The position numbers and the translations under genes are program-made. Shown here in pieces: positions 4,388 to 24,850 of a DNA stretch of 64,000 nt. This DNA comes from Planctomycetaceae bacterium. Lineage in GTDB: Bacteria; Planctomycetota; Planctomycetia; Planctomycetales; Planctomycetaceae. The notes beneath the pieces were generated by a model that ran no database searches, had not been told where the DNA came from, and saw only the letters and a list, made by a program, of their open reading frames with translations. Location: the NCBI GenBank assembly GCA_021732995.1, contig JAKFWA010000046.1, forward strand, positions 1 through 64,000, written 5' to 3'. Every line of letters starts with the position of its first letter. Position 1 is the stretch's first letter.

Positions 4388-4921
4388 TCAAGCGGGAGCT
4401 GAAGTTTGTCCGCCAGCCGCGTCTTCCTCGGCCTGACCGGCGAATTCTGAATAACGTTCGAGCGCCAGGATCATGCGTTCGAGCAAACCGACCATGCGGG
4501 GAATGTCCGTTTCCACGAGCCGCTGCAACTGACTCATCCGACCGACGAACTCGTCCGTCTCCTGCCGCAGATCGATGCCGGTTTGCTTCACGATCTCGAC
4601 TTTTTCCTGACAGTAAGCCAGTCGGCGTTTGGCGTCGGCCAGCGCCTTCTTCTCCTCTACCAGAGAGGGCTTATGACCATACGCTTCCTTGCGCATGCGA
4701 TTGGTTTCCAGCGAGGTGCGGGTCTCGGCGACATCATCAAACGCGTCGAGGACCTCCTGACGCCAGTACCGCGGTTGATCATTCTCAACCCAGCTCAGCG
4801 CGTAGAACACCTGCTCCTGCAGATTGGTGAGAGCGTCATTGACTCGCTGTGAAAACACCAGCAACGCCGCTCGAAAGTCGCGAAGAGAATCAATTGAGTG
4901 CACGTTCGCTTGATCGGACAT
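4388..4921 (-). CDS. Conserved coiled-coil protein of unknown function
   Basis: A 177-residue protein, predicted cytosolic and mostly helical. The start at 4921 is preferred over an upstream one at 4990 because AGGACGA lies about 8 bases before this ATG and the protein then begins directly with conserved-looking sequence (SLRDFRAALL). A central segment, ALSWVENDQPRYWRQEV, is followed by long heptad-like Lys/Glu/Ala-rich helices (about residues 70-115) and a Leu/Arg-rich helix near the C-terminus. It resembles a family of planctomycete proteins remembered by the WxxxDxPRYW motif, for which no function is known. The acidic Gly/Ala tail is low complexity. Confidence 0.8.
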   Translation of the reverse strand: MSDQANVHSIDSLRDFRAALLVFSQRVNDALTNLQEQVFYALSWVENDQPRYWRQEVLDAFDDVAETRTSLETNRMRKEAYGHKPSLVEEKKALADAKRRLAYCQEKVEIVKQTGIDLRQETDEFVGRMSQLQRLVETDIPRMVGLLERMILALERYSEFAGQAEEDAAGGQTSAPA

Positions 4922-5358
4922 CGCGTTCGTCCTGATGTGAATATGCGAGTTTGCGAGCGACGCTGACTCCGCCTGCCGCTTCACAAGCATCAGGCGTCGT
5001 TAGAGTTCGAGTGAAGTCACTAAAGCGCGTAGCTTAACGCCCGAAGTTGAACATTCAGGTGTCTCACGGGAAATGAGGATCAAGCCGAAGCCTGCAGATT
5101 CTGCAACCAGCTCAGGCACGGATATGCATAGACCTGCAGAAATGGAGGGTGAGCGGTCTGACTCGGAAAGTTATTCCGGCGCGCGGTTGCGGGGTGGGTC
5201 GACAGCCCCCGCGTAACCGGCTTTCTCGTCATGGCAGGCACAGACGGATGCCGATGAATGCCGTGTCTGCCTGGACGCCGGGGCCAAGGGAGTGCGCACC
5301 GGTTGTGTCCAAAGCTGGGCGGGAACCAGGCGGATCGCTGAGACATGAGGAGGAAAGC
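4922..5358. other. Intergenic region between divergent genes
   Basis: About 437 bases between the coiled-coil gene (minus) and the exported-protein gene (plus). It should contain both promoters. Open frames crossing it on either strand are Arg/Pro-rich and have no start signals, so no gene is called. The only clear site is the strong ribosome-binding sequence GAGGAGGAAAG just before 5359. Confidence 0.6.
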
Positions 5359-6096
5359 ATGGCCGTCCGTCGAATCCGCTGGAGCTACTGTATCGCTTTG
5401 GGAGCCCTGCTGGTGCCCCTGACAGCGAACGCGGACTTTCCGTGGCCGTGGAAGTCGTCAGCGAAATACAAAGCCTGGAAGCAGGAACGCGACGAGCAAC
5501 GCTCAAGCTACTACGCCGAACGAGCTGAAGATCCAGTCGGCGCTCGCCAGTACGAATACAAAGGCAAGGATTGGCCGCCTTATCCGCGTCCGACGGGACC
5601 GTCTCAGGTTCCGACACACGTTTACCATGCGGCTCACTATTGGCCGCATCCGTATGTGTGCCAGGATCGCGAGATCGTGCGCCAGTACATCTATCTGCAG
5701 GAAGAAGCGGGCTGGGTTTCCGAGACGACTCTGTACGACTACCACTTTGACCGCGACCAGCAGGCGTTGAACCGTGCTGGTTTGATTCATCTGAAGTGGA
5801 TTCTGGAGAACGCTCCGGAAAACCGCCGCACGGTCTTTGTGCAGTCGGGAGCGAACAACGGCGCCAGCCAGTTGCGCATGTCGAACGTGCAGTCGGAACT
5901 CGCTGAAATCGTTCCTGCGGGCGCAATGCCTGCGGTGGCGCTGCGAGTGACTCAACCGCTCGGCCGACCGGCTCTGGAGGTCGACAAGATTCAGCGATCC
6001 GAGATCGACTCTCAGCCGATTCCTCGCATTTCTCCGCCGTTTGCGAACGGTGGTCTCGGCAGCACGGGAGCCACTCAAGGCAACTCCGGTCTGTAA
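5359..6096 (+). CDS. Exported protein of unknown function
   Basis: A 245-residue protein with a clear signal peptide (residues 1-24, Arg-rich start, hydrophobic core ALGALLVPL, cleavage near ANA-D). The start at 5359 is chosen because GAGGAGGAAAG immediately precedes it and the signal peptide then starts correctly; a longer frame from 5149 has no such support. The mature N-terminus is rich in Trp, Tyr, Lys and Arg (FPWPWKSSAKYKAW). The middle has YWPHPYVCQDREIVRQ and an HLKWILENAP-like segment. The C-terminal 60 residues are Pro/Gly/Ser-rich and probably disordered. The alternation of hydrophobic and polar segments around RRTVFVQSGAN suggests a globular domain, but no family was recognised with confidence. 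The next gene is an AAA+ ATPase 87 bases away, across a hairpin. Confidence 0.85.
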   Translation: MAVRRIRWSYCIALGALLVPLTANADFPWPWKSSAKYKAWKQERDEQRSSYYAERAEDPVGARQYEYKGKDWPPYPRPTGPSQVPTHVYHAAHYWPHPYVCQDREIVRQYIYLQEEAGWVSETTLYDYHFDRDQQALNRAGLIHLKWILENAPENRRTVFVQSGANNGASQLRMSNVQSELAEIVPAGAMPAVALRVTQPLGRPALEVDKIQRSEIDSQPIPRISPPFANGGLGSTGATQGNSGL

Positions 6097-6101
6097 TGCG
6101 T

Positions 6102-6135
6102 GCGACTTCGGTATCAGCTTGATATCCGAAGTCGC
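6102..6135 (+). terminator. Long hairpin between two co-directional genes
   Basis: GCGACTTCGG (6102-6111) pairs with CCGAAGTCGC (6126-6135), and the loop pairs further (TATCA with TGATA, loop GCT, one bulged T). The stem is 15 pairs in all. It lies 6 bases after the stop codon at 6096 and 47 bases before the next start. Only a weak T-rich stretch (GTTTCT) follows, so it may act as a partial terminator or a stabilising 3' structure. Confidence 0.65.
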
Positions 6136-6182
6136 GGCGTTTCTGGCATTGGTCATCCAACAATTTCAATCGCGCGGTCCCG

Positions 6183-7817
6183 ATGATTGGCGGCAATCCT
6201 CAACCTTCGAATCCGGGCCTTCCGGGATCGCTGAGTCAGTCGTTGTTCGGGTCAGTGCTGCCCGGAGCACCGACGAGCAGCGGCGCAGGTGCTCCACCAC
6301 CATTGCCGCCTTCGCGTCCTGCGCTGACGCCCCCGAATCCACTGACGACGCCGCTTCCTCTAGGCAATACGCAACCGGGCTTCCGTAGCTACACCCAGCA
6401 AGCAGACCTCTACGCCGAGCTGTTTGGCGTCGCGAACAAGCCTCGACTGGACGTGCCGACCTCCAGCCACAAACCTCAATCGCGGCTCAAGCAGGCGAAC
6501 GCGCCGGCACCGACGAGTCCTCGCAACCTGAAGGACAGCGGCCTGTCGGTCAGTCAGGTCTGCGACTTGATCCTCAAGCAACTCTATTTGCACGGCAACT
6601 TGATGGGGGTTGAGATCGCGCGCAACGCGCGGTTGCCATTCAATGTCATTGACGAGTGCCTGCGGTTTCTGAAAGAGGATCACTGCCTCGAAGTTTCATC
6701 CGGCGACGTGATTGGTCGCGTATCCTATCGGTTCTCGCTGACGGAAACCGGGCGCACACGTGCCCGCGAGGCGTTTGATTTCTGCCGCTACGTAGGACCA
6801 GCTCCGGTGCCGCTGGAGCAGTACGTGGAGCAGTGTCGTCGTCAGGCGGTGACGGGCATCAACTGCACTCAGGATGCGCTGCTGGAAGCGTTTGAAGACC
6901 TGATTATCGCTCCGACCCTGTTGGACGAACTGGGCCCGGCGGTGTGCAGCGGCAAGTCGATCTTCCTGTATGGCCCGCCGGGCAACGGGAAGTCGCGGAT
7001 CGCGAAGGGACTCGGCCGGTTCCTGAATCAGCACGGCGGCGAGATCTATGTGCCGTACGCGATTCACAGCGAAAACAGCATCATCACGATCTTCGATCCC
7101 AGTCTGCATCAGACGACGGATGAGGAAGAGCTGCGGATGCTGCTGGGCGATGCGAATCAAACCGAAACGCAAACCGACATCGGTCGTCTGCTGCATGAGA
7201 ATCATGCGGACATGCGTTGGCGGCGCGTGCGGCGTCCGGTGGTGGTGACGGGCGGCGAACTGACGCTCGATATGCTGGACCTGCGGTTCAACAAGCAGAG
7301 CAACTTCTATACGGGGCCGCTGCAACTGAAGGCGAACAGCGGCGTCTTCATGATCGACGACTTCGGCCGTCAGATTGTGTCGCCGAAAGACTTGCTCAAC
7401 CGCTGGATTCTGCCGCTCGAAGAACGCATTGATTACGTCACTTTGGCCACCGGCAAGAAGTTTCCGGTGCCGTTCGAGCTGCTGATCATTTTCTCAACGA
7501 ATCTCGAACCGGCGCATCTGGTGGACGACGCGTTCCTGCGACGTATCCGGCACAAGGTGAAGATAGATACGCCCTCGCGTGAGCTGTTCACAGAAATCTT
7601 TAGTCTTTCTTGCGAGCAGAAGAATATTGCCTTCGAACCGCGGGCCGTCGAGTTCCTCTTCCACAACTATTACAACGTTGGTCGGCTGCCAAGATCTTCC
7701 GACCCTAGGGATTTGTTGGAGATCATTCAGGCAATCTGTCGATTCAGGAATCAGCGAATGGTTTTGACTCAAGAGCTAATGGCTGAAGCGACTCACAGAT
7801 TCTTCAGCAAGTTGTGA
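6183..7817 (+). CDS. AAA+ ATPase with winged-helix-like N-terminal region
   Basis: A 544-residue cytosolic ATPase. Residues 1-115 are Pro/Ser/Gly-rich and likely disordered. Residues 120-200 look like a helix-turn-helix or winged-helix domain (VCDLILKQLYLHGNL, then RYGFSLTETGR-type strands, here YRFSLTETGRTRARE). The AAA+ core follows: Walker A GPPGNGKS at 264-271, Walker B FMIDDFG from 389 and a sensor-like FSTN near 438. The arginine pair FLRRIRHK at about 455 is in the position expected for an arginine finger. Function is unknown; such proteins are remembered from planctomycetes beside secreted or TPR proteins. It is flanked by an exported protein and a TPR lipoprotein on the same strand, so a role linked to envelope or secretion machinery is possible but only inferred. 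Confidence 0.9.
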   Translation: MIGGNPQPSNPGLPGSLSQSLFGSVLPGAPTSSGAGAPPPLPPSRPALTPPNPLTTPLPLGNTQPGFRSYTQQADLYAELFGVANKPRLDVPTSSHKPQSRLKQANAPAPTSPRNLKDSGLSVSQVCDLILKQLYLHGNLMGVEIARNARLPFNVIDECLRFLKEDHCLEVSSGDVIGRVSYRFSLTETGRTRAREAFDFCRYVGPAPVPLEQYVEQCRRQAVTGINCTQDALLEAFEDLIIAPTLLDELGPAVCSGKSIFLYGPPGNGKSRIAKGLGRFLNQHGGEIYVPYAIHSENSIITIFDPSLHQTTDEEELRMLLGDANQTETQTDIGRLLHENHADMRWRRVRRPVVVTGGELTLDMLDLRFNKQSNFYTGPLQLKANSGVFMIDDFGRQIVSPKDLLNRWILPLEERIDYVTLATGKKFPVPFELLIIFSTNLEPAHLVDDAFLRRIRHKVKIDTPSRELFTEIFSLSCEQKNIAFEPRAVEFLFHNYYNVGRLPRSSDPRDLLEIIQAICRFRNQRMVLTQELMAEATHRFFSKL

Positions 7818-7896
7818 CGAGCGTGATCGGCAACCTCTTGTGTCTCAAGCGTTTGCTCGCCCTCAGGATGAGGTGCGTCGCATAAGGAGATGCGGG

Positions 7897-8922
7897 ATGC
7901 CGGCAGCTATGCTTTATCGATTGACTCTTGCAGGGTGCCTGTGTGCACTCGTGGGATGCCAGTCGGCCGGAATAAAGTCGTGGAACCCGCTCAAATTCGG
8001 CTCTGAACACGCTGCCCGGACCAAAGGTCTGAAGGATCCTGTTCGCACGCATCTGGCTTACGCTCAATTGCAGGAGCATAGCGGCAATCTCAACGACGCT
8101 CGCGAGTCCTATCAGATCGCTCTGGAACAGGACGCGAAGTCCGTGGAAGCCGTGCTGGGTCTAGCTCGACTGGAACAACTCGCCGGACGCGATCGCGACG
8201 CCGATCTGCAGTTCAAAAAAGCACTGCAGATGGCGCCGGGCAATGTGCATGTCATCGAATCGGTGGCTCAATTCTACCTGAGCCAGGATCGCTTCGATGA
8301 AGCCGTGAAGTTGCTCGAAAAGGGCGTGGAAGCAGATCCTCAGAATCGCAAGATGAGGTTCAACCTGGGAGTCGCATTGGCTCGCGCGGGAGACGTCAAA
8401 CGCGCGGAAACCCAGTTTGTGCAGGCCATCGGAGACGCCGAAGCTGACTACAATCTGGGCGTGATCCTCTATGAGAAGGGTGACGTGGCCGAGGCTGAAA
8501 GACGTTTCCAGCGAGCGGTCACTCGCAAGCCCGGTCTCGTGCAGGCCAAGAACTGGCTGGATGAAATTCGCGCGGAACGTGCCAATGGCGGCAAGAACAT
8601 GCTCGCCAGCAATGTGGTCGATCAGGTCGAAGAACTGGCAGCACCGGTTCCCACACTCGGGTCGAACGTTCCTCGATCTCAGCCCACGACCGACCTGGTG
8701 AGCAACACCGCGATGCCGCTGGTCACTCCGTCAGGCAACGGCTCCGTGCCGCTGGTCCCACCGACCGTGGAATCCGCCCCGAATCTGCTGGGACAGAGGG
8801 CCTTGGAGCCTTCGCAGATGTCTCCAATTCAGTTGGAGCAGTACGAGAACTCTCTGCCACCGGGTGAACGCGAACGGTTCCGTCAGGCACGGATGGCTCA
8901 GCAGCCGCAGATGCTGCGCTAA
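7897..8922 (+). CDS. TPR-repeat lipoprotein
   Basis: A 341-residue protein with a lipoprotein signal: lipobox LVGC with the modifiable cysteine at residue 21. The start at 7897 has AAGGAG 7 bases upstream; a frame extension to 7840 has no such signal and would mask the signal peptide. Residues 45-225 contain about five tetratricopeptide repeats, for example the segments around AYAQLQEHSGNLNDARESYQ, LGLARLEQLAGRDRDA and YNLGVILYEKGDVAEAERRF. The C-terminal 120 residues are Pro/Val/Ser-rich and end in a Gln/Met/Arg-rich tail, probably disordered. It is likely anchored at the inner or outer membrane and acts as a protein-interaction scaffold. It is in the same direction as, and 79 bases after, the AAA+ ATPase gene. 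Confidence 0.92.
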   Translation: MPAAMLYRLTLAGCLCALVGCQSAGIKSWNPLKFGSEHAARTKGLKDPVRTHLAYAQLQEHSGNLNDARESYQIALEQDAKSVEAVLGLARLEQLAGRDRDADLQFKKALQMAPGNVHVIESVAQFYLSQDRFDEAVKLLEKGVEADPQNRKMRFNLGVALARAGDVKRAETQFVQAIGDAEADYNLGVILYEKGDVAEAERRFQRAVTRKPGLVQAKNWLDEIRAERANGGKNMLASNVVDQVEELAAPVPTLGSNVPRSQPTTDLVSNTAMPLVTPSGNGSVPLVPPTVESAPNLLGQRALEPSQMSPIQLEQYENSLPPGERERFRQARMAQQPQMLR

Positions 8923-8931
8923 CCGCTCCGT

Positions 8932-8981
8932 GAGTTCGTCCTCACGTTGATTGCGTGCGTCATCAAGCTGATGACGAACTC
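8932..8981. terminator. Inverted repeat between convergent genes
   Basis: GAGTTCGTC (8932-8940) is perfectly complementary to GACGAACTC (8973-8981). The right arm lies within the 3' end of the methyltransferase gene. With the convergent arrangement it could help end transcription from the left gene, but the loop is large and there is no T-run. Confidence 0.35.
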
Positions 8982-9769
8982 GCGGCGATTCGCTGGCGAT
9001 GCACTTCATACATCAGGATTCCGCCAGCAACTGCTGCGTTCAGCGAATCGAAGTCTGTGGCCTGCGGGATAAGAACTTCGGCGTCACACAGGCGAATGAG
9101 ATCCGGCTGAATGCCTCGGCCTTCGTTCCCGATGATCAAGGCTGTCGGCTGTTGAAAGTTGAAGGCATTAATCGGCTGCTGAGCTGTCAATGTGGCGGCG
9201 GCGACCCGGATCCCCTGTGTTTTCAGCCGTTCGATGACCGGGGACAGATCGTCTACTTGCGCGAGGGCGACTCGATTGATTGCCCCGGCTGAGCTACGCG
9301 CGACCTGACTGGTGACTTCCACTTGCGCGTGACTTCCGATGATCACGCCTTGCACACCAAAGACACACGCAACTCGGCAGAGAGCACCGAAGTTAAAGGG
9401 GTCCTGAATCGAGTCCAAAAGCAGCAAGAATTGTGGGGGCTTGGCCGCGCTGAGGACCTCGTCCAACGACTGGTAAGGAAAGGGCGGCATCTGCATGGCC
9501 AGCCCCTGATGTTCACGGCTGCGAGTCAGCTCAGTCAGCCGCTCCTGGGAGACACGTTCCAGCGGCAGATCCAGTTGGCGTGTCAACGACATCAACTCGG
9601 CAGAAGCGACCTCACTCAGTTCGGATGAGTAGCAAACCACATGGGGCAGCCAGCGTCCGGCGCGCAGCGTTTCCAAGGCGACATTACGGCCCCAGAGCCA
9701 GCACTTTTGATGATTTCCCAGCAACTCGCCCTTGGTGCGACGAATATTGCGACGGCGTTGTTCCACCAT
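8963..9769 (-). CDS. rlmB: TrmH/SpoU-family RNA 2'-O-ribose methyltransferase (RlmB-like)
   Basis: A 268-residue SAM-dependent methyltransferase of the SPOUT class. An N-terminal substrate-binding domain (WGRNVALETLRAGRW near residue 27) precedes the catalytic domain. Motif 1 is LLLDSIQDPFNFGALCRVA (Asn before FGA), motif 2 is IIGNEGRGI and motif 3 is DSLNAAVAGG. This order and length match RlmB, which methylates G2251 of 23S rRNA, although TrmH-type tRNA or other rRNA targets cannot be excluded. The ATG at 9769 is used; the frame stays open to a TTG at 9829, and neither has a good ribosome-binding site. A second SpoU-family gene lies at 17235-18032. Confidence 0.9.
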   Translation of the reverse strand: MVEQRRRNIRRTKGELLGNHQKCWLWGRNVALETLRAGRWLPHVVCYSSELSEVASAELMSLTRQLDLPLERVSQERLTELTRSREHQGLAMQMPPFPYQSLDEVLSAAKPPQFLLLLDSIQDPFNFGALCRVACVFGVQGVIIGSHAQVEVTSQVARSSAGAINRVALAQVDDLSPVIERLKTQGIRVAAATLTAQQPINAFNFQQPTALIIGNEGRGIQPDLIRLCDAEVLIPQATDFDSLNAAVAGGILMYEVHRQRIAASSSSA

Positions 9770-9873
9770 GTGACCGCAGCCAAAACCAGTACTTTCAGCG
9801 CGGCTCCGAAAGTGAAGCCGCGCCAACAAAGTTACTGGCTGACCAGCACGGTCGCTATCTGGTGCCGCGTTGG

Positions 9874-10374
9874 TTACTCGGACTTGGGCTCGATCCTGAT
9901 GGACAGCACATTGCCCGGTTCAAGCTGCACCGACAGCGTTCCGAGCATCGGGATCTCAAGTTTGACCGCAGACATGGTCTTGCGTTGCGGAGCTGCGACC
10001 TCGGCGGGAGCTGCTTCTGCCACTGGTGCAGCGGCCGATTTCTCGCTCACTTCCGTTTCGACAGCACCAACGTCCTCGAGCGTCAGTGGTTTGCGACCGG
10101 CTTTCTCAAGACACTCATTGAGTGACTGCAGCGCCCGCGGACGCACCAGTTGCGGCAGGAGATGAGTGACCGACTGCAGAGGTTCAATGGCGTCTTCAAA
10201 CCGTCCGTCCGCCTTCAGGGCTTCTCCGGTGAGCCAGATGTGAGGCACGCGGAATGGCCCGGCGTCCTGAATGGTTTCCAGCTCCGCCAAGGCCTGCTTG
10301 GGCATCCCGAGTTCGAGATATCCTTCTGCGGCAGTGAGGCTTCGAGCGATACGATTCGACGGATTGATAATCAT
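9874..10374 (-). CDS. Small TPR-like protein of unknown function
   Basis: A 166-residue protein. The ATG at 10374 is preceded by CGGGAG 8 bases upstream, so it is preferred to the in-frame start at 10404. Residues 10-95 form two TPR-like helix pairs (GYLELGMPKQALAELETI and GEALKADGRFEDAIEPLQ). An Ala/Glu/Pro-rich linker (about 105-135) is followed by a short beta-rich C-terminal segment (LEIPMLGTLSVQLEPGNVLS). No family name was recognised. It lies 104 bases upstream of the RlmB-like gene on the same strand, so the two may be co-transcribed, and it is divergent from the Mpo1-like gene. Confidence 0.8.
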   Translation of the reverse strand: MIINPSNRIARSLTAAEGYLELGMPKQALAELETIQDAGPFRVPHIWLTGEALKADGRFEDAIEPLQSVTHLLPQLVRPRALQSLNECLEKAGRKPLTLEDVGAVETEVSEKSAAAPVAEAAPAEVAAPQRKTMSAVKLEIPMLGTLSVQLEPGNVLSIRIEPKSE

Positions 10375-10637
10375 TGTGTTGCTCCCGACAGGCAGCCGGT
10401 TCAAACTGACAGCACTGATGTGAGCAAGGACTGTGCCAGTTACTTTTCTGGACAGTGAACTCTCAAATCAGTGCTGTTTTTCACAGGAATCAATGCACAG
10501 CTATCCGTTCTTTGATGCCACATTGGCAGGCAGAGTGTGCTATACATGTCAGAGATCCTTGTTCGCGTTCGAACTCCGTTTGATTCCTGTAACTCATTAC
10601 TCCGTCCGCGCTGGAAATCGCCGACAAATCGCAAAAC

Positions 10638-10937
10638 ATGAGCTTCATCAAGAACTACATCGAACGACATCAGAACCGTCCCAACCAGGTGCTTCATCTC
10701 ATTGGAGTTCCGCTGGCTTTCGTGGTTTCGATCGTCATGCTGACCAAGCAGCAATCGACGTGGGCTGCGGCGGCGTTCGTGGGCGGCTACGTGCTCCAGT
10801 TTGTTGGACACGCCATTGAAGGGAATGACGCAGGCGAACTGATTCTGATCAAGCGTGCTCTCGGGAAGCCGTATCGCGAGTTCGGTCCTGGTACTCCTCA
10901 AGGTCGGTTGGAAGAACAGTCAAAGTCTAACGGTTAA
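10638..10937 (+). CDS. Mpo1-like (DUF962) small membrane protein
   Basis: A 99-residue membrane protein. It has the pattern of the Mpo1/YGL010w (DUF962) family: an N-terminal HxxxxNxxLHLIGVP segment (about residues 11-26), two hydrophobic helices, and QFVGHAIEG near 54-62. In yeast Mpo1 is an Fe2+-dependent dioxygenase acting on 2-hydroxy fatty acids, and the conserved histidines are thought to hold the metal; bacterial members are mostly uncharacterised. The C-terminal REFGPGTPQGR region is hydrophilic. It is divergently arranged from the TPR-like gene, with 263 bases between. It ends 82 bases before the TolC-type gene. Confidence 0.85.
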   Translation: MSFIKNYIERHQNRPNQVLHLIGVPLAFVVSIVMLTKQQSTWAAAAFVGGYVLQFVGHAIEGNDAGELILIKRALGKPYREFGPGTPQGRLEEQSKSNG

Positions 10938-11019
10938 GCGGCCGATAGTACCTGTAGCGGTTGTGCCGGCGCGTCGTCGCTGCGCAAGCATTTTCCGTTC
11001 AGCCGCACAGGGAGAGACA

Positions 11020-13305
11020 ATGACTGCCCGCCGAAAAATCCTGCCGCTTGCCTATCTTGCCACGACCGCACTTGCGCTGGCGGGATGCTCGCAGACCAAT
11101 GAAGTCCACTACTTCGGGGAGACGGGCGAAACTCAGTACTATCTCGATCGCGCGACCAAGACTGACTTCGCGCTGGTGGAAACCGAACAGTCGGCCGAGG
11201 CCGTCGGTTCGTTGGCTCCGCGTACCGTTCTCGAAGAACGCAAAGACGAAATCTGGAGCCTGCCGCTGAGCGAGGCTGTGCACATCGGTCTGCAGAACAA
11301 TCGCATCATTCGCAGCCGCGCCGCCTTCATGTCGGAAGGCAACCCGATTCTGAATTCCGCCGACCGTACACCCAGTATCTACGACCCCTCGATTCAGGAA
11401 TCGGGCGTGTTGTTCGGCGGTCGTGGTGTGGAATCCGCCCTGGCGGCGTTCGATACGCAGCTCGCTGCTCAGATGGCGTGGGGACGCAATGAAACTGCCA
11501 CCAACACTCGCATTCCCGGCCCGGCTGCCGCAGAGTTCGGTGCTGAGACGGCTGACTTCGGAGCCAGCCTGAGCAAAACCTTCGCCTACGGTGGTACGGT
11601 CAGCTTGAACCACGATGTCGGTTATCTGGGAACACCCGCTGGACCGAATTCTTTGTTTGGAAGCGTCTACGCGGGCAGCGTGGGCGCGTCCTACCGACAT
11701 CCCTTGCTGGCTGGTTCGGGTGCCGAGTTCACGCGCATCGCCGGTCCGATTGCGAACTCATTCGGCGGCCTGACGGGTGTTTCTCAGGGCGTAGTCATCG
11801 CCCGCATCAACAACGACGTCACGATCACTGACCTCGAAGAAAACCTCACCAACTTCGTGAAGGACGTGCAGGACCAGTACTGGGAGCTCTATCTCAACTA
11901 CCGGCTCTACGACACGACGGTCACATCGCGGAACAGTGCTCTGCGGACGTGGCGCGATGCCAAACTGAAACGGGATGTCGGCGGTGCTCCGGGTTTCACG
12001 CTGGAAGACGAAGCTCAAGCTCGTGACCGTTACTTTGAAACTCAGGCGCAATCGAAGCTGGCATTGTCGCGAGTCTATCAGACCGAATCAGCCTTACGCC
12101 GCTTGATCGGTCTGCCGGTGAATGACGGTCGCGTGATCCGTCCGGCGGATGAACCGATCGCTGCCAAGTATGAGCCCGATTGGGGCAGTGCGATCGCCGA
12201 CGGTGTGACGCGACGCGTTGAATTGCGACGTCAGAAGTGGCAGATCAAGAGCCTCGAACTGCAATTGCTGGCTGCAGAGAACCTCGTTCGTCCGCGACTC
12301 GACTTCGTCGGCGGCTATCAGGTGAACGGCTTCGGCGATCAGTTATTGAGCCAGGGTGATCGCGACCGCGCGGGCACCCGTCAGGGACTCAACAGTTTCT
12401 ACGAGACCATCAACCAGGGCGATCATACCGGTTGGAACGCCGGTCTGGTGTTTGAACTGCCGCTGGGCCTGCGAGCCGCGCGGGCTCAAGTGCGTAACGT
12501 CGAGCTGCGGCTGACGAAGGCACGCGATGTCCTTGCCGCGTCGGAAATGGAAATCAGCCACGAAATCGCGAATGCGTTCCAGTCGCTCGCGGAGACTTAC
12601 ACACTGACTCAGTCGTATGTGAACCGCCGCGACGCGGCACTCGAACGGGTCCGCTTGACGGAAGCCAACGAGAAAGTCGGCAAGCAGACCATCGATATGG
12701 TGTTGCGAGCCCAAGCCAGTCTGGCGGAAGCCGAAGTGGCCTACTTCAGAGCACTGGTGTCTTACTCGCAGTCTATCACCAATCTGCACTTCCGACAGGG
12801 CGTACTGCTGACCCAAAGCAACGTCTATCTTTCTGAGAGCGACTGGACTCCGGAAGCATTCGATCTCGCTCTCCGCCGTGCTCGGTCTCGCACCGCGGCT
12901 TTCGATGCTGAAAAGTATCTGGACACTCAACCCGCCGAGTTTGCGGCTCCGGATGAATTCAGTGCACACCCGATCATAGCGATTCCGCTGCCCCCCGAGG
13001 TTTCAGGACAGCCGGTACCCGCTCCCGGCGCGACGGGCTCGGGCAATGAGAAGTTACCACTGAGCGTCCCGGGAGCCGAACCCGAGGTAACTCCGCCGAA
13101 GATCGACGATTCCAAGAAGATTCAGCCCCCCAAGCTGCTGCCCGAAATCAAAGACAAGGACGATCAAGCCTTGATGAAGCCTGCCAACCCGGGCGGGCTC
13201 ACACTGGTTCCACCAGCACCAGCGGCAGTCGTTTCGCCGACAACTCAGCAGACGAGTTGGAGAGCGACGGCTCCAGGGGGAGCGACAACTCGAGTGCGTC
13301 AATAG
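11020..13305 (+). CDS. TolC-family outer-membrane efflux lipoprotein
   Basis: A 761-residue outer-membrane channel protein of the TolC/OEP family. The start at 11020 (GGGAGAGACA just upstream) gives a lipoprotein signal with lipobox ALAGC near residue 22. A longer frame from 10855 overlaps the upstream gene and is not supported. Two OEP-type repeats are visible: PLSEAVHIGLQNNRIIRSR near residue 85 and the long helical segment RDVLAASEMEISHEIANAFQ near 510, followed by heptad-rich helices. Between them lies a large Gly-rich beta portion. The final 130 residues are Pro/Lys-rich and periplasmic or disordered, an extension absent from E. coli TolC. No periplasmic adaptor or inner-membrane pump gene is adjacent, so the export partner is unknown. 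A strong terminator follows. Confidence 0.92.
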   Translation: MTARRKILPLAYLATTALALAGCSQTNEVHYFGETGETQYYLDRATKTDFALVETEQSAEAVGSLAPRTVLEERKDEIWSLPLSEAVHIGLQNNRIIRSRAAFMSEGNPILNSADRTPSIYDPSIQESGVLFGGRGVESALAAFDTQLAAQMAWGRNETATNTRIPGPAAAEFGAETADFGASLSKTFAYGGTVSLNHDVGYLGTPAGPNSLFGSVYAGSVGASYRHPLLAGSGAEFTRIAGPIANSFGGLTGVSQGVVIARINNDVTITDLEENLTNFVKDVQDQYWELYLNYRLYDTTVTSRNSALRTWRDAKLKRDVGGAPGFTLEDEAQARDRYFETQAQSKLALSRVYQTESALRRLIGLPVNDGRVIRPADEPIAAKYEPDWGSAIADGVTRRVELRRQKWQIKSLELQLLAAENLVRPRLDFVGGYQVNGFGDQLLSQGDRDRAGTRQGLNSFYETINQGDHTGWNAGLVFELPLGLRAARAQVRNVELRLTKARDVLAASEMEISHEIANAFQSLAETYTLTQSYVNRRDAALERVRLTEANEKVGKQTIDMVLRAQASLAEAEVAYFRALVSYSQSITNLHFRQGVLLTQSNVYLSESDWTPEAFDLALRRARSRTAAFDAEKYLDTQPAEFAAPDEFSAHPIIAIPLPPEVSGQPVPAPGATGSGNEKLPLSVPGAEPEVTPPKIDDSKKIQPPKLLPEIKDKDDQALMKPANPGGLTLVPPAPAAVVSPTTQQTSWRATAPGGATTRVRQ

Positions 13306-13336
13306 CCGCACAAGTTGTAGCCCCACATGATCAACC

Positions 13337-13379
13337 AGAGCGACGGACGCATTCAGTGCCCGTCGCTCTTTTCATTTTG
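13337..13379 (+). terminator. Rho-independent terminator of the TolC-type gene
   Basis: AGAGCGACGG (13337-13346) pairs perfectly with CCGTCGCTCT (13360-13369), with a 13-base loop, followed by TTTTCATTTT. It lies 31 bases after the stop of the plus-strand gene and just before the stop of the convergent minus-strand gene. It is the clearest intrinsic terminator in the window. Confidence 0.9.
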
Positions 13380-13385
13380 CCGCAC

Positions 13386-15041
13386 TCAAGACGGCGGGTT
13401 CAGGAGTGGCTCCGGGTTGGCCATTGGCAAGCCCAATTTGTCTGCCAGGCTGGCTTCGATAAATACGGCGGCGGCTCCGTCCGCGAAAACCATCCGCCAG
13501 CCGGGAAGGCGTAACATGCCATTAATCGCGGGTCGCGAGGAGCGACTGTCGAGAATGACAGCAGGCAGCAGTCCTTGCTCATCACGCGGACCGATGAGTT
13601 GTGCGAAGCTCGGGTCGCCTTGAGACATCTTCTGCAGAGCGGCCTCGAACGTTTCAAACGTGCGACGGCTGCAGACCTCCAGACGACCGTCCATGAAGAC
13701 CAGTCGTTGCGGAGCATTGTGGAAGATGTAAACACCCGCCTGACCGATGTTGGCGACGAAGGCCCGTCCCGGCATCTCAGCCTGACCTGCGAAGCGGGCC
13801 GCATCGTGAGCAAACCACGCCGGATGCTCGCTCAACGAGAAGCGATCGCGCGAACCGCTCCATTTCCCCCAATGACCGGAAAAGTGGCAGGCTGTCAAAA
13901 ACAGGATCACACCGCTCAACGTCCAAGCCAATCGCACGTTCCTGCGATCCGCGTTCCAGGCCGGAGTTCGCAGTGTTTCCAGGTTGGCACAAAGCGCATT
14001 CGCTGCAATGAGCGTCACGAGGCTCGTGTTGCGCATCATCTTCCAACCGAGAAACGAGAACGCGCAGAACAGCAACGCACGCAGCAGATCGACTCGTCGC
14101 TGGTCGGCAGCTTCAGTTCTTGGACCAAATACCAGCCGCGCCACGAAGCTCAGCGCGGCACTCAGCCAGAGCAGCAGCACGGTATCGAAGTGCCAACTGC
14201 GGAAACCGGTCTGCTGAAAGAACACCAGTGGCGGAGTGAACTCATCAATGCGACTCGCATAGAACGCCTGATCGACCGACAGCTTGCGAAACAGCACCAG
14301 CGGGAAGAACGCTCCCTCTTCCAGATACGGATTCACAAACGCGGCGAGCAACAGCAGCGCCCCAAGCTTCAACAGCGAGCCAATCGGGACCTGTCGCGCG
14401 TCGTTGTGTTCGGACCGCAGAGCAAACTTCAAGCTGAACTGGTCGACAACAAAGGCTCCGGCCACAACCAGTCCTAGCACCGACAGCGCATGGCAGTTGT
14501 TCCAGACGACCTGCAGCAGTGGCAGCCACCAGAGCAGACGCGGCTTGCCGGGAAATCGCTCAATGACCCAGAGCCAAGTCGCCAGACCGAGCAGTGTCAT
14601 TAACTCCGGTCGAGCCAGAGCGCGGCCAGAAAGGCAGATCGCGGCTAGAGACCAGACGCCCGCTCGCAGCCAGACCGGCAGCGTTCTTCCCGCTGACGAG
14701 TATCCCAGCGCGACCGTGCCCGTGATCGCCGCGGCAGTCGCGAGCGTAAGCGCGGGAATTCCGCCGAGGGCGTACAAAGCGGTCGCGAGCAGTTGAAAGC
14801 CCCAGTGCAGGTCCACCCACGAAGCATCGTTCTCCGTGAACGTGAACCAGTCGCCGAATGGAACCGTGCCGCGTTCCAGAATGAGTTGCCCGGTCCTGAG
14901 GTGCCACCAGATGTCGTGGTCCATCAGCGGCGAGCACGACATGCAGAACGTCCACACCAGCAGGCAGCCCACCAGCCACCAATTCGCGCGGCGAGCCATC
15001 AACGATGGCTCGGCGGGAATGTCGGCAGATGGTTGATTCAT
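13386..15041 (-). CDS. Multispanning membrane protein (GT-C-like)
   Basis: A 551-residue inner-membrane protein with about 10-12 hydrophobic segments. Near the N-terminus it has SPLMDHDIWWHLRTGQ (about residues 37-52), an Asp-containing loop after the first transmembrane segment that recalls GT-C glycosyltransferases such as PMT/ArnT (GT39), followed by FTFTENDASWVDLHWGF. The last 150 residues form a soluble periplasmic-type domain (FVANIGQAGVYIFHNAP, then FMDGRLEVCSRRTFE). It may transfer sugars or oligosaccharides from lipid carriers, but the catalytic residues cannot be confirmed by eye. It lies 36 bases downstream of the REC-HATPase regulator on the same strand and is probably co-transcribed with it. 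Confidence 0.85.
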   Translation of the reverse strand: MNQPSADIPAEPSLMARRANWWLVGCLLVWTFCMSCSPLMDHDIWWHLRTGQLILERGTVPFGDWFTFTENDASWVDLHWGFQLLATALYALGGIPALTLATAAAITGTVALGYSSAGRTLPVWLRAGVWSLAAICLSGRALARPELMTLLGLATWLWVIERFPGKPRLLWWLPLLQVVWNNCHALSVLGLVVAGAFVVDQFSLKFALRSEHNDARQVPIGSLLKLGALLLLAAFVNPYLEEGAFFPLVLFRKLSVDQAFYASRIDEFTPPLVFFQQTGFRSWHFDTVLLLWLSAALSFVARLVFGPRTEAADQRRVDLLRALLFCAFSFLGWKMMRNTSLVTLIAANALCANLETLRTPAWNADRRNVRLAWTLSGVILFLTACHFSGHWGKWSGSRDRFSLSEHPAWFAHDAARFAGQAEMPGRAFVANIGQAGVYIFHNAPQRLVFMDGRLEVCSRRTFETFEAALQKMSQGDPSFAQLIGPRDEQGLLPAVILDSRSSRPAINGMLRLPGWRMVFADGAAAVFIEASLADKLGLPMANPEPLLNPPS

Positions 15042-22829: not shown

Positions 22830-22930
22830 CCGGGTTACGGCGCAGCGGATCAACAGACGCTCGCAAAGGACTGGAAGAACTGCTTCAGGTCGCGCGTGGA
22901 ACGCCTCGGTTCAGCGGTGGCGGCGCGCTG

Positions 22931-23023
22931 ACCTAACCAGCACGCCACGAGCGCATAATCACATGACGCGTTTGCGGCGCGCACGCGTTGCGGTCGAACC
23001 GTCCGCTGCTACTGCTGTTAGGC
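22931..23023 (-). repeat. attC-like recombination site 1
   Basis: Read on the minus strand: GCCTAAC (23023-23017) at one end and GTTAGGT (22937-22931) at the other, fitting the RYYYAAC...GTTRRRY boxes of integron attC sites, 93 bases apart. The stem continues past the boxes with AGCA against TGCT, separated by one unpaired base, as in known attC sites. The stop codon TAA of the gene at 23018-23368 lies inside the GCCTAAC box, typical of gene cassettes. Internal arms contain ACGCGT repeats. Confidence 0.75.
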
Positions 23024-23368
23024 GCCGTCGTCGTAGATTGCGTCCCCGACGGTATCGATGAGAATTGTGTGGCACTCCACTTCAAACCACGCTTCGAAGA
23101 CCTTGATGCTGCGGTTCTTCGGCCACAGCGACGCATCCGTGTACCACCCTTCGAGCTCCGCTTCGAATAGGGCCTTGTAGTTTCGCGTTATCCAGCGTTT
23201 TTGAGCCTGTTCCGTTTCCGCATCTTCATCGCGAATCAGATAGACCGTTCGTTCCTCGTTTACAATTTCGACTGTGAGCCCCGGATCTTCCTTGTGCGGG
23301 TCGGCGTCGTTGATCCACTGTACGGCGGGAGCCTTGTAACGAAGTAGGAGCGCTGCGCGATTAAGCAC
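23018..23368 (-). CDS. Cassette protein 1, unknown function
   Basis: A 116-residue cytosolic protein beginning at GTG 23368, 16 bases after the end of the next attC-like site. It has an acidic composition with conserved-looking segments AALLLRYKAPAVQWINDADP, KALFEAELEGWYTDASLWP and VFEAWFEVECHTILIDT. A family with this L-E-x-E-L-E-G-W and W-P pattern is remembered from many bacteria, always as a hypothetical protein. No function can be given. The gene has no ribosome-binding site of note and ends in the attC-like site. Confidence 0.8.
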   Translation of the reverse strand: MLNRAALLLRYKAPAVQWINDADPHKEDPGLTVEIVNEERTVYLIRDEDAETEQAQKRWITRNYKALFEAELEGWYTDASLWPKNRSIKVFEAWFEVECHTILIDTVGDAIYDDGA

Positions 23369-23384: not shown

Positions 23385-23482
23385 GTATAACGATAAGAAT
23401 AAGGTGTCGGGCCGCCTGCAAAGCCATCGCACCGCCCAAGACCAGGATGGCGGCCCCGGTCAGCTTCATCCGCTTGTTAGCG
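23385..23482 (-). repeat. attC-like recombination site 2
   Basis: On the minus strand CGCTAAC (23482-23476) begins the site and GTTATAC (23391-23385) ends it, 98 bases. The inner arms are a perfect 8-base pair, GGGCCGCC (23409-23416) against GGCGGCCC (23449-23456); the arms between are imperfectly complementary (about 10 of 17). The boxes fit the attC consensus only in the AAC/GTT core, but the inner palindrome, length and position 10 bases after a stop codon are as expected. Confidence 0.65.
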
Positions 23483-23492
23483 GTCGATCCAG

Positions 23493-23981
23493 TCAGGGCG
23501 CCTTGCCATCGACGGTGAAGCGATTGATTACGGTGCCTTCCGGAAGGTCCTTCGTTTGACGATGGACTTGTGCGGTTATGCTCTCATGAACCATCAAATC
23601 GCAAACTTCGATGTTGTCAACTTGCAGCGGCCCGCTCAGCACCGGCGGAATCTTGAAGCTGAGGCATTGCCCCGGCCCTGGTCGCAGTCCACGCTCCCAA
23701 CAAAGCATCGCGAGATCGGCCATGAACCATTGATCGAGGTTTTTTTGCTTCGCGCGTTCGGCAAGGAACGCTTGCCGCGAAGATGCGATCTCCGACAACT
23801 CGGCGGCAACAGTGTCAAGAAAGATCATCCGGCCCGCCGAGTCCTCGAAAAACCAGTCGCCGAAGATCGTGAGCGAGAATGGCCGAAACGACTCTGGAAC
23901 CAGCCATCGCCAGTCGGACAACAGGCGATTGTAGTCGAGGCCGGTCGCATCAATCGTGAGCCTTTTCCAGTCCATGTCCAT
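23493..23981 (-). CDS. Cassette protein 2, DUF1851/Tdi1-type (immunity-protein-like)
   Basis: A 162-residue protein resembling the DUF1851 (T6SS immunity Tdi1 C-terminal) family: FSLTIFGDWFFEDSAGRMIFLD near the N-terminus, the central GQCLSFKIPPVLSGP and the C-terminal VHESITAQVHRQTKDLPEGT. Tdi1 is the immunity partner of a type VI effector; whether this protein binds a toxin is unknown and no toxin gene is adjacent. ATG at 23981 is used; a TTG at 23987 and a second ATG at 23975 are alternatives. The start is only 9 bases after the attC-like site 3 box. Confidence 0.8.
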   Translation of the reverse strand: MDMDWKRLTIDATGLDYNRLLSDWRWLVPESFRPFSLTIFGDWFFEDSAGRMIFLDTVAAELSEIASSRQAFLAERAKQKNLDQWFMADLAMLCWERGLRPGPGQCLSFKIPPVLSGPLQVDNIEVCDLMVHESITAQVHRQTKDLPEGTVINRFTVDGKAP

Positions 23982-23990
23982 GTCCAATAC

Positions 23991-24063
23991 CGCTAACGCC
24001 TGAACTCACCCGGCCGCGACGAGTGATTGTCCATTTGAAGAACGCCCGACTTAGTGGTTGGGG
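23991..24063 (-). repeat. attC-like recombination site 3 (weaker)
   Basis: On the minus strand the site starts CCCCAAC (24063-24057) and ends GTTAGCG (23997-23991), 73 bases. The outer boxes pair only in AAC/GTT. An internal hairpin TCACTCG/CGGGTGA is present with one mismatch. The position, between the stop of cassette gene 3 (24 bases) and the start of cassette gene 2 (9 bases), is what makes it a candidate. Confidence 0.5.
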
Positions 24064-24087
24064 TGCATTGCTTGGGTATTTTGCTTT

Positions 24088-24657
24088 TCAAAGCCCAAGT
24101 GGATGACTGGAAAGCCAATCGGAAAAGCAAGATTTAAGTTGGTCGCGTTGCGCTTGGTTTGGAAGTATGAAATCAGCCCCTCCGTCGTATGGATGACATA
24201 TCCAATGTCTATCAGCACACACAATCATAGTATCGACGATTTTCCCATCAGCTACGAGTCGCAGAATTGAATCGAAAATGCCGGGTTTCCATTGCCATTC
24301 GCTCATGAACAAGTGGCGGTAGTAGTTTTCGTCATCACCAAAATCGGCCTTGAACGTCCAAATGCAGCGGCCCGCGGAATCGAGATCGACAAGTGGCGAA
24401 TCCTCGCGTGCCGGAATACTTGTGTCACCAAATTCAGTTGAAATCAACAGTAGCGGTGCGTCTTGTTTTGCCAGAAGGCCAAGTACCGCGTTGTGTCGAT
24501 GGAGAAGGATTTGGTATTCAGCATCGTTCTCGGCGTAGCGTTTCGACTCTGGTAACGAGTGGAAACGCACCCATCGCTCGGGGTATGCATCGCGGAGTAG
24601 ATAAGGAATTGCGGGACATGCTGGGTACTTAGCCCGCCAGTAGGCCTCGAAGTTCAA
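24088..24657 (-). CDS. Cassette protein 3, unknown function (DUF3885-like)
   Basis: A 189-residue protein starting at TTG 24657, since an in-frame stop is just upstream. Features: WVRFHSLPESKRYAENDAEY near residue 29, HRHNAVLGLL near 53, and a C-terminal CHPYDGGADFILPNQAQRD near 152. This resembles a bacterial family carrying the RFHSLPESKRY and HPYDGGAD motifs, which I tentatively link to DUF3885; the name is uncertain. The codons appear less GC-rich than in flanking genes, consistent with acquisition. It is followed by attC-like site 3. Confidence 0.75.
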   Translation of the reverse strand: MNFEAYWRAKYPACPAIPYLLRDAYPERWVRFHSLPESKRYAENDAEYQILLHRHNAVLGLLAKQDAPLLLISTEFGDTSIPAREDSPLVDLDSAGRCIWTFKADFGDDENYYRHLFMSEWQWKPGIFDSILRLVADGKIVDTMIVCADRHWICHPYDGGADFILPNQAQRDQLKSCFSDWLSSHPLGL

Positions 24658-24676: not shown

Positions 24677-24850
24677 AGATAACAGTGAATTGGGCAGCGC
24701 GCTGGCTAACTCGGCGAAACGTCGAATTGCTGCTCTCAACATACGTGAACGTAAAGTTCCTGATAGTAAGTAATTTGTCAATCGGCATAGATGGATTTTC
24801 AGGTGCCGGGATAGCACATTGCCTCGGCGCGCTGGCTAATTCCGTTATCC
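24677..24850 (-). repeat. attC-like recombination site 4, long inverted repeat with an internal direct repeat
   Basis: On the minus strand GGATAAC (24850-24844) opens and GTTATCT (24683-24677) closes, 174 bases. The arms continue pairing through AATT and AGCGCGC with a 2-base bulge and short mismatches, so the stem is long. GCGCGCTGGCTAA also occurs twice in direct orientation near 24698 and 24826, so a duplication of 128 bases is an alternative reading. It lies 19 bases before the start of cassette gene 3. Confidence 0.6.

Follow-up and report, generated by a model that had tools for sequence, protein, structure and literature searches.

At the end of a short run of gene cassettes, a small minus-strand gene terminates within the heptamer GCCTAAC, and the question raised by this locus is whether that heptamer is the R'' end of an attC site and, if so, which downstream box is its R' partner. 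The window, by which we mean the whole 64-kb stretch of DNA analysed, is contig 56 of a planctomycete draft genome (9.39 Mb, 135 contigs; marker completeness, 99.98%). It carries three small, co-directional cassette genes on the minus strand (24088-24657, 23493-23987, and 23018-23368), flanked on the left by an ECF sigma-factor gene with its partner and on the right by a DUF1549/DUF1553 cytochrome-type gene. Along the minus strand, an attI-like element is followed by a DUF3885 cassette, a cassette with a Tdi1-C-domain, and a 116-aa gene (Table 1). GCCTAAC occupies 23023-23017 of that strand, and the TAA at 23020-23018 terminates the ORF 23368-23018, in agreement with a first-pass annotation of the locus. 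That annotation had also assigned GCCTAAC, stop codon included, to R'' of an attC closing the 3' end of a gene in a short cassette array, and this assignment stands. We consider it likely that the array is an integron with three cassettes, that the site is the attC of the last one, and that it runs from R'' at 23023 to R' at 22896, a length of 128 nt.

Table 1. Features of the cassette array in the window, and the integrase gene of a relative used for comparison
Feature	Position	Strand	Remarks
R'' box GCCTAAC with TAA stop (23018-23020)	23017..23023	(-)	Matches RYYYAAC
L'' region	23002..23009	(-)	G23009 extrahelical, core CAGCGG 23008-23003, A23002 second extrahelical; register to alignment A1
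L' core CCGCTG	22912..22917	(-)	Exact complement of L'' core; paired in best folds of both strands
R' box GTTCCAC	22896..22902	(-)	Crossover after G22902; right half unlike RRRY
GTTAGGT, box of the first-pass annotation	22931..22937	(-)	Loop of 10-bp hairpin 22924-22948, hairpin z -3.7
Cassette 3 gene	24088..24657	(-)	DUF3885 (PF13021), E 2.2e-42
Site 3, attC of cassette 3	23991..24081	(-)	15.6 bits, E 0.38; R'' core decayed, TACC for TAAC
Cassette 2 gene	23493..23987	(-)	T6SS_Tdi1_C (PF08906) domain
Site 2, attC of cassette 2	23385..23482	(-)	36.4 bits, E 8.8e-6; simplified column and pair score 46.0
Cassette 1 gene	23018..23368	(-)	116 aa (116-codon ORF)
Site 1, probable terminal attC as revised	22896..23023	(-)	128 nt; best R'' partner; arms match planctomycete attC layout
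attI-like element	24677..24850	(-)	Homologues head other arrays; a homologue adjoins intI in relative G454
Divergent intI of G454	14000+4606 to 14000+5538		Contig 143

A stop codon inside R'' is ordinary. Among 32 other cassettes of this genome with an ORF of at least 60 codons, nine have a TAA in R'' at the same offset, and the remainder have it just before R''. The annotation rules of ACID likewise allow a cassette ORF to overlap its attC by up to 15 bp (PMC2674596). Cassette genes terminate at their attC or close to it, which is why the stop of cassette 1 falls within R''.

Planctomycete attC sites already count as a taxon with a covariance model of its own (PMC8352920). Our reference set comprised 25 attC sites of other planctomycetes, taken from arrays that adjoin intI; these sites align without gaps once the loop is trimmed (alignment A1). 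The layout is an R'' of 7, a spacer of 6, an L'' with extra bases at columns 16 and 23, an L', a spacer of 7, and an R' of 7, and its pairing covaries, with a score of 0.35 versus 0.14 in shuffles and 0.07-0.14 in slid versions. The resulting covariance model recovered unseen sites in the intI-bearing relatives G024, G257, and G266; outside the window, it found ~40 sites in this genome, spread over arrays on contigs 4, 34, 48, and 115. In the window, it reported site 2 at 36.4 bits (E 9e-6) and, weakly, site 3 at 15.6 bits (E 0.38), whereas site 1 was not reported (cmsearch, E 10). With the cmsearch filters off even site 2 was missed, apparently through a length limit, and an absence there carries no meaning. 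The best-supported site of the array is accordingly site 2, and not site 1 as had been claimed; among the three, site 1 ranks second or last.

To find the partner of the R'' at 23023, a simplified column and pair score was applied against every downstream GTT. The model from other genomes gave 16.9 for GTTCCAC (22902-22896) versus 12.0 for GTTAGGT, and a model of 34 attC sites that this genome carries in its other arrays gave 12.3 versus -12.9. When the R''-L'' arm was offered a random GTT partner, the probability of the score was 0.00035 for GTTCCAC and 0.14 for GTTAGGT under the same-genome model, and 0.014 versus 0.056, a modest preference, under the other-genome model. At the canonical distance, the L' core for GTTCCAC is CCGCTG, with six of six positions complementary to the L'' core, as against two of six at GTTAGGT. 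The 5' arm of site 1 by itself is unremarkable (P 0.13-0.24). In simulated sequence, the same-genome model reached scores of at least 12 twice in 30 windows of 64 kb. A wider search with the other-genome model (gaps up to 210) reached at least 16 on 19 occasions in 40 windows, and site 1 is therefore convincing by its place at the gene end and array end, not by score alone. A simpler scorer, which ranked 22931-23023 first in the window, was rejected; it ignored the arm with the extra base.

Set against the features of an attC, site 1 has an R'' that fits RYYYAAC and lies close to the 3' terminus of its cassette gene, fully complementary L cores (CAGCGG/CCGCTG) at the canonical spacing on the L' side, and an L'' arm where the extrahelical columns of alignment A1 are occupied by G23009 and A23002. 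It shares with planctomycete chromosomal integron attC sites (such as those of G307, from the same family, at L032 beside intI) the R''-6-L''...L'-7-R' layout, the extra base and second unpaired base in the L'' arm, and a location at the cassette gene's 3' end. Unlike them, it is 128 nt long rather than about 60-112, its R''-L'' spacer is one base short of canonical, and its R' is not of the RRRY type: GTTCCAC keeps the core GTT of GTTRRRY, but CCA departs from RRR, and the right half, CCAC, pairs poorly with R''. Such a departure would be expected, since the right half of a terminal R' derives from the target. Site 1 is very probably a real attC. In site 3, the loop is 94% identical over 47 nt to a G307 attC (L032 10559-10604).

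An attC folds on the strand opposite the coding one, which for this site means the plus strand of the window and not the minus strand on which the first-pass annotation had proposed to fold the site. On the minus strand, the GCCTAAC and GTTAGGT boxes were not joined. They were joined in plus-strand pieces of 93 and 103 nt, but for the 128-nt site the best fold of neither strand brought them together. In the 128-nt folds of both strands the L cores pair and GTTAGGT lies in a hairpin loop, the hairpin being GGCGTGCTGG-TTAGG-TCAGCGCGCC; TGCT-GTTAGGT-CAGC makes a hairpin of its own. Fold z-scores of the attC pieces are small for both strands, so that folding energy cannot choose between the R'' partners. 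The stem extension that had been described, AGCA (23016-23013) with TGCT (22942-22939), can indeed pair, leaving G22938 unpaired, but this base had been credited with directing strand choice. Within the R''-L'' arm, the extrahelical base that comes first in the L'' box sets strand choice, which the unpaired central spacer does not determine (PMC2727003). G22938 lies beside R', in the spacer on the other arm, and is therefore not the strand-choice base; it is G23009 and A23002, and not G22938, that agree with the extrahelical bases of reference attC sites.

Under the preferred reading, the bottom strand (the plus strand of the window) would fold, R'' would pair with R' and L'' with L', and IntI would exchange strands after the G of R'. 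An IntI would once have recombined site 1, and the array would now be immobile because intI has decayed.

The letters GTTAGGT are present on the minus strand at 22937-22931 as had been annotated, and their role has to be weighed. In the reading that makes them R', the attC would be 22931-23023 with a decayed L' half, and CCGCTGAACCGAGGCGTTCCAC would be the leftover half site of a lost cassette. The box does fit GTTRRRY, and the plus strand of 22931-23023 folds with the boxes joined. Strict RYYYAAC...GTTRRRY pairs with a spacing of 30-140 nt number only five in the 64 kb, GCCTAAC/GTTAGGT included. Given the R'' arm, an inverted repeat as good as the 7-bp R''/R' pairing plus AGCA/TGCT arose in only 7 of 5000 simulated sequences of local composition, and the repeat is therefore more than bare chance. 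However, GTTAGGT comes without an L' (two of six positions), scores -12.9 under the same-genome model (P 0.14) and forms its own hairpin, while the next GTT downstream has a perfect L'. We regard this reading as improbable. The second box of the first-pass annotation is probably wrong, and GTTAGGT most likely lies within the variable terminal structure of site 1. The cassette boundary is corrected as a result: on the revised reading, the terminal crossover lies 35 bases beyond the by-eye reading, which fell short because the box-like GTTAGGT sits in the variable loop.

Were site 1 not an attC at all, gene 1 would be a chromosomal gene beside a two-cassette array, and its boxes would have arisen by chance. 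The lack of a covariance-model match is in keeping with this, as are homologues of the gene in Halomonas and others, where no clear attC was found 3' of the gene. The 116-aa protein had zero matches in Pfam, NCBIfam, and PADLOC, and an Rfam scan of the window matched nothing. Yet gene 1 starts 17 nt past the R' of site 2, just as a homologue in a Nitrosomonas MAG (68% identical) lies directly 3' of an attC, the R'' overlaps the stop at an offset usual in this genome, and the box and spacing statistics also speak against chance, which makes this alternative very improbable. An empty-site comparison with a same-genus genome found no joined flank, because the sigma-factor gene and the DUF1549/DUF1553 gene are on separate contigs there; no homology was seen among the sequences 3' of terminal attC sites across arrays.

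At the head of the array, the 174-bp element at 24677-24850 was found via the repeat TTAG-N-CAGCGCGC. It holds two GTTAGCCAGCGCGC-type repeats (24839-24827 and 24709-24697), a TTGACA (24781-24776), and the junction CACTG^TTATCT, with the crossover after G24683. Homologues precede arrays on contigs 34, 4, and 48 and occur elsewhere in the genome. In G454, of the same family, the homologue has a divergent intI on one side and a first cassette with an attC on the other, and the alignment of the two elements retains TTGACA, CGAGTTAG, and GCTGYYCAAT..ACTGTT. Position and homology thus identify the element as a candidate attI. Its reading as a fourth attC of 174 nt (R'' GGATAAC, R' GTTATCT, L CAGCGC/GCGCTG) was rejected because the score was only 6.1 and the element aligns over its full length with the attI beside intI in G454. 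Homology with a relative that retains intI makes an attI-like element recognisable at the head of an array without intI, which helps to separate decayed integrons from stray cassettes.

Several smaller observations concern this element. Copies lie at L088 1967, 3366, 4622, and 7561, L084 8391, L086 1518, L164 5488, and L163 5332, besides that in the window. A short ORF (MVDKSLTQNQLGSSESRAVTRRMAELANALLNSLLG...) spans the element and crossover (L117 1461-1560, L119) and recalls ORF-11 in attI1; the window copy is frameshifted. Upstream of attI (L117, L118) there is a palindrome, GGGGATAACATGTTATCCCC in the contig-34 copy and GGGATAATATGTTATCC in the contig-48 copy, which may be where a regulator bound a lost intI promoter. 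GTTAGGTCAGCGCGC (22923-22937), part of the site 1 loop, is similar to the attI repeats, and of only four occurrences of its pattern in the whole genome, three lie in the array of the window.

No intI was found in the window or contig, and a search of the genome for the integron integrase (TIGR02249) returned nothing over cut-off, the best matches being XerC, XerD, and XerA-like proteins. The contig-48 array is preceded by a fragment resembling the N-terminus of IntI, with an in-frame stop (L083 653-808, minus strand; LLEKTRQAMRSWHMSVRSEEAYR*WIEEFLRFYR), divergent from the array that follows. The window array has an attI-like element and no intact intI beside it, and so differs from a complete integron. 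With three attC sites in 1.2 kb (one strong, one weak, and one by layout) and no nearby intI, it resembles a CALIN, a cluster of attC sites lacking an integron integrase (PMC9024848), a class whose counts are inflated by draft assemblies (PMC9024848). Unlike a CALIN, it keeps an attI-like head element, which is outside the CALIN definition, and only one of its three sites scores strongly. As a description of the array, a decayed integron, or a CALIN that has retained its attI, fits best; it is an ordinary integron that has probably degraded.

It may instead be intact: an intI missing from the 135-contig draft would act in trans on this and other attI sites dispersed through the genome. The attI-like element is present in at least seven copies, of which several stand at the head of arrays with intact attC sites, and the contig-48 array breaks near the contig start. 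Against this, marker completeness is 99.98% and no intI exceeds the cut-off, the same-genus genome also has attI-like copies without intI, and an intI remnant with a stop is present; we find this account unlikely. Still less likely, in our estimate, is that many dispersed attI platforms, each heading an array without a local intI, are or were served in trans by one integrase. If so, arrays would multiply by copying attI and not the whole intI-attI unit.

In the same-genus genome, G411, there are at least five attI-like copies, likewise without intI. In the genome of the window (G000), the ~40 attC sites on contigs 48, 34, 4, and 115 (L083-L086) form several arrays without intI, and the largest array there (20 sites) starts within 1.6 kb of a contig end. 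GC-rich repeated stretches with CACTCTCCGTGTGCGGGTTTCCTGGGTCC lie near array heads (L118, L083 1-450). A lone 60-nt attC (GCCTAACAATTCATTCAAGCCGAAGCCGCTTC...; L089 1882-1941, C17:63381) has a TAA stop in its R'' and resembles the attC sites of class 1 resistance cassettes.
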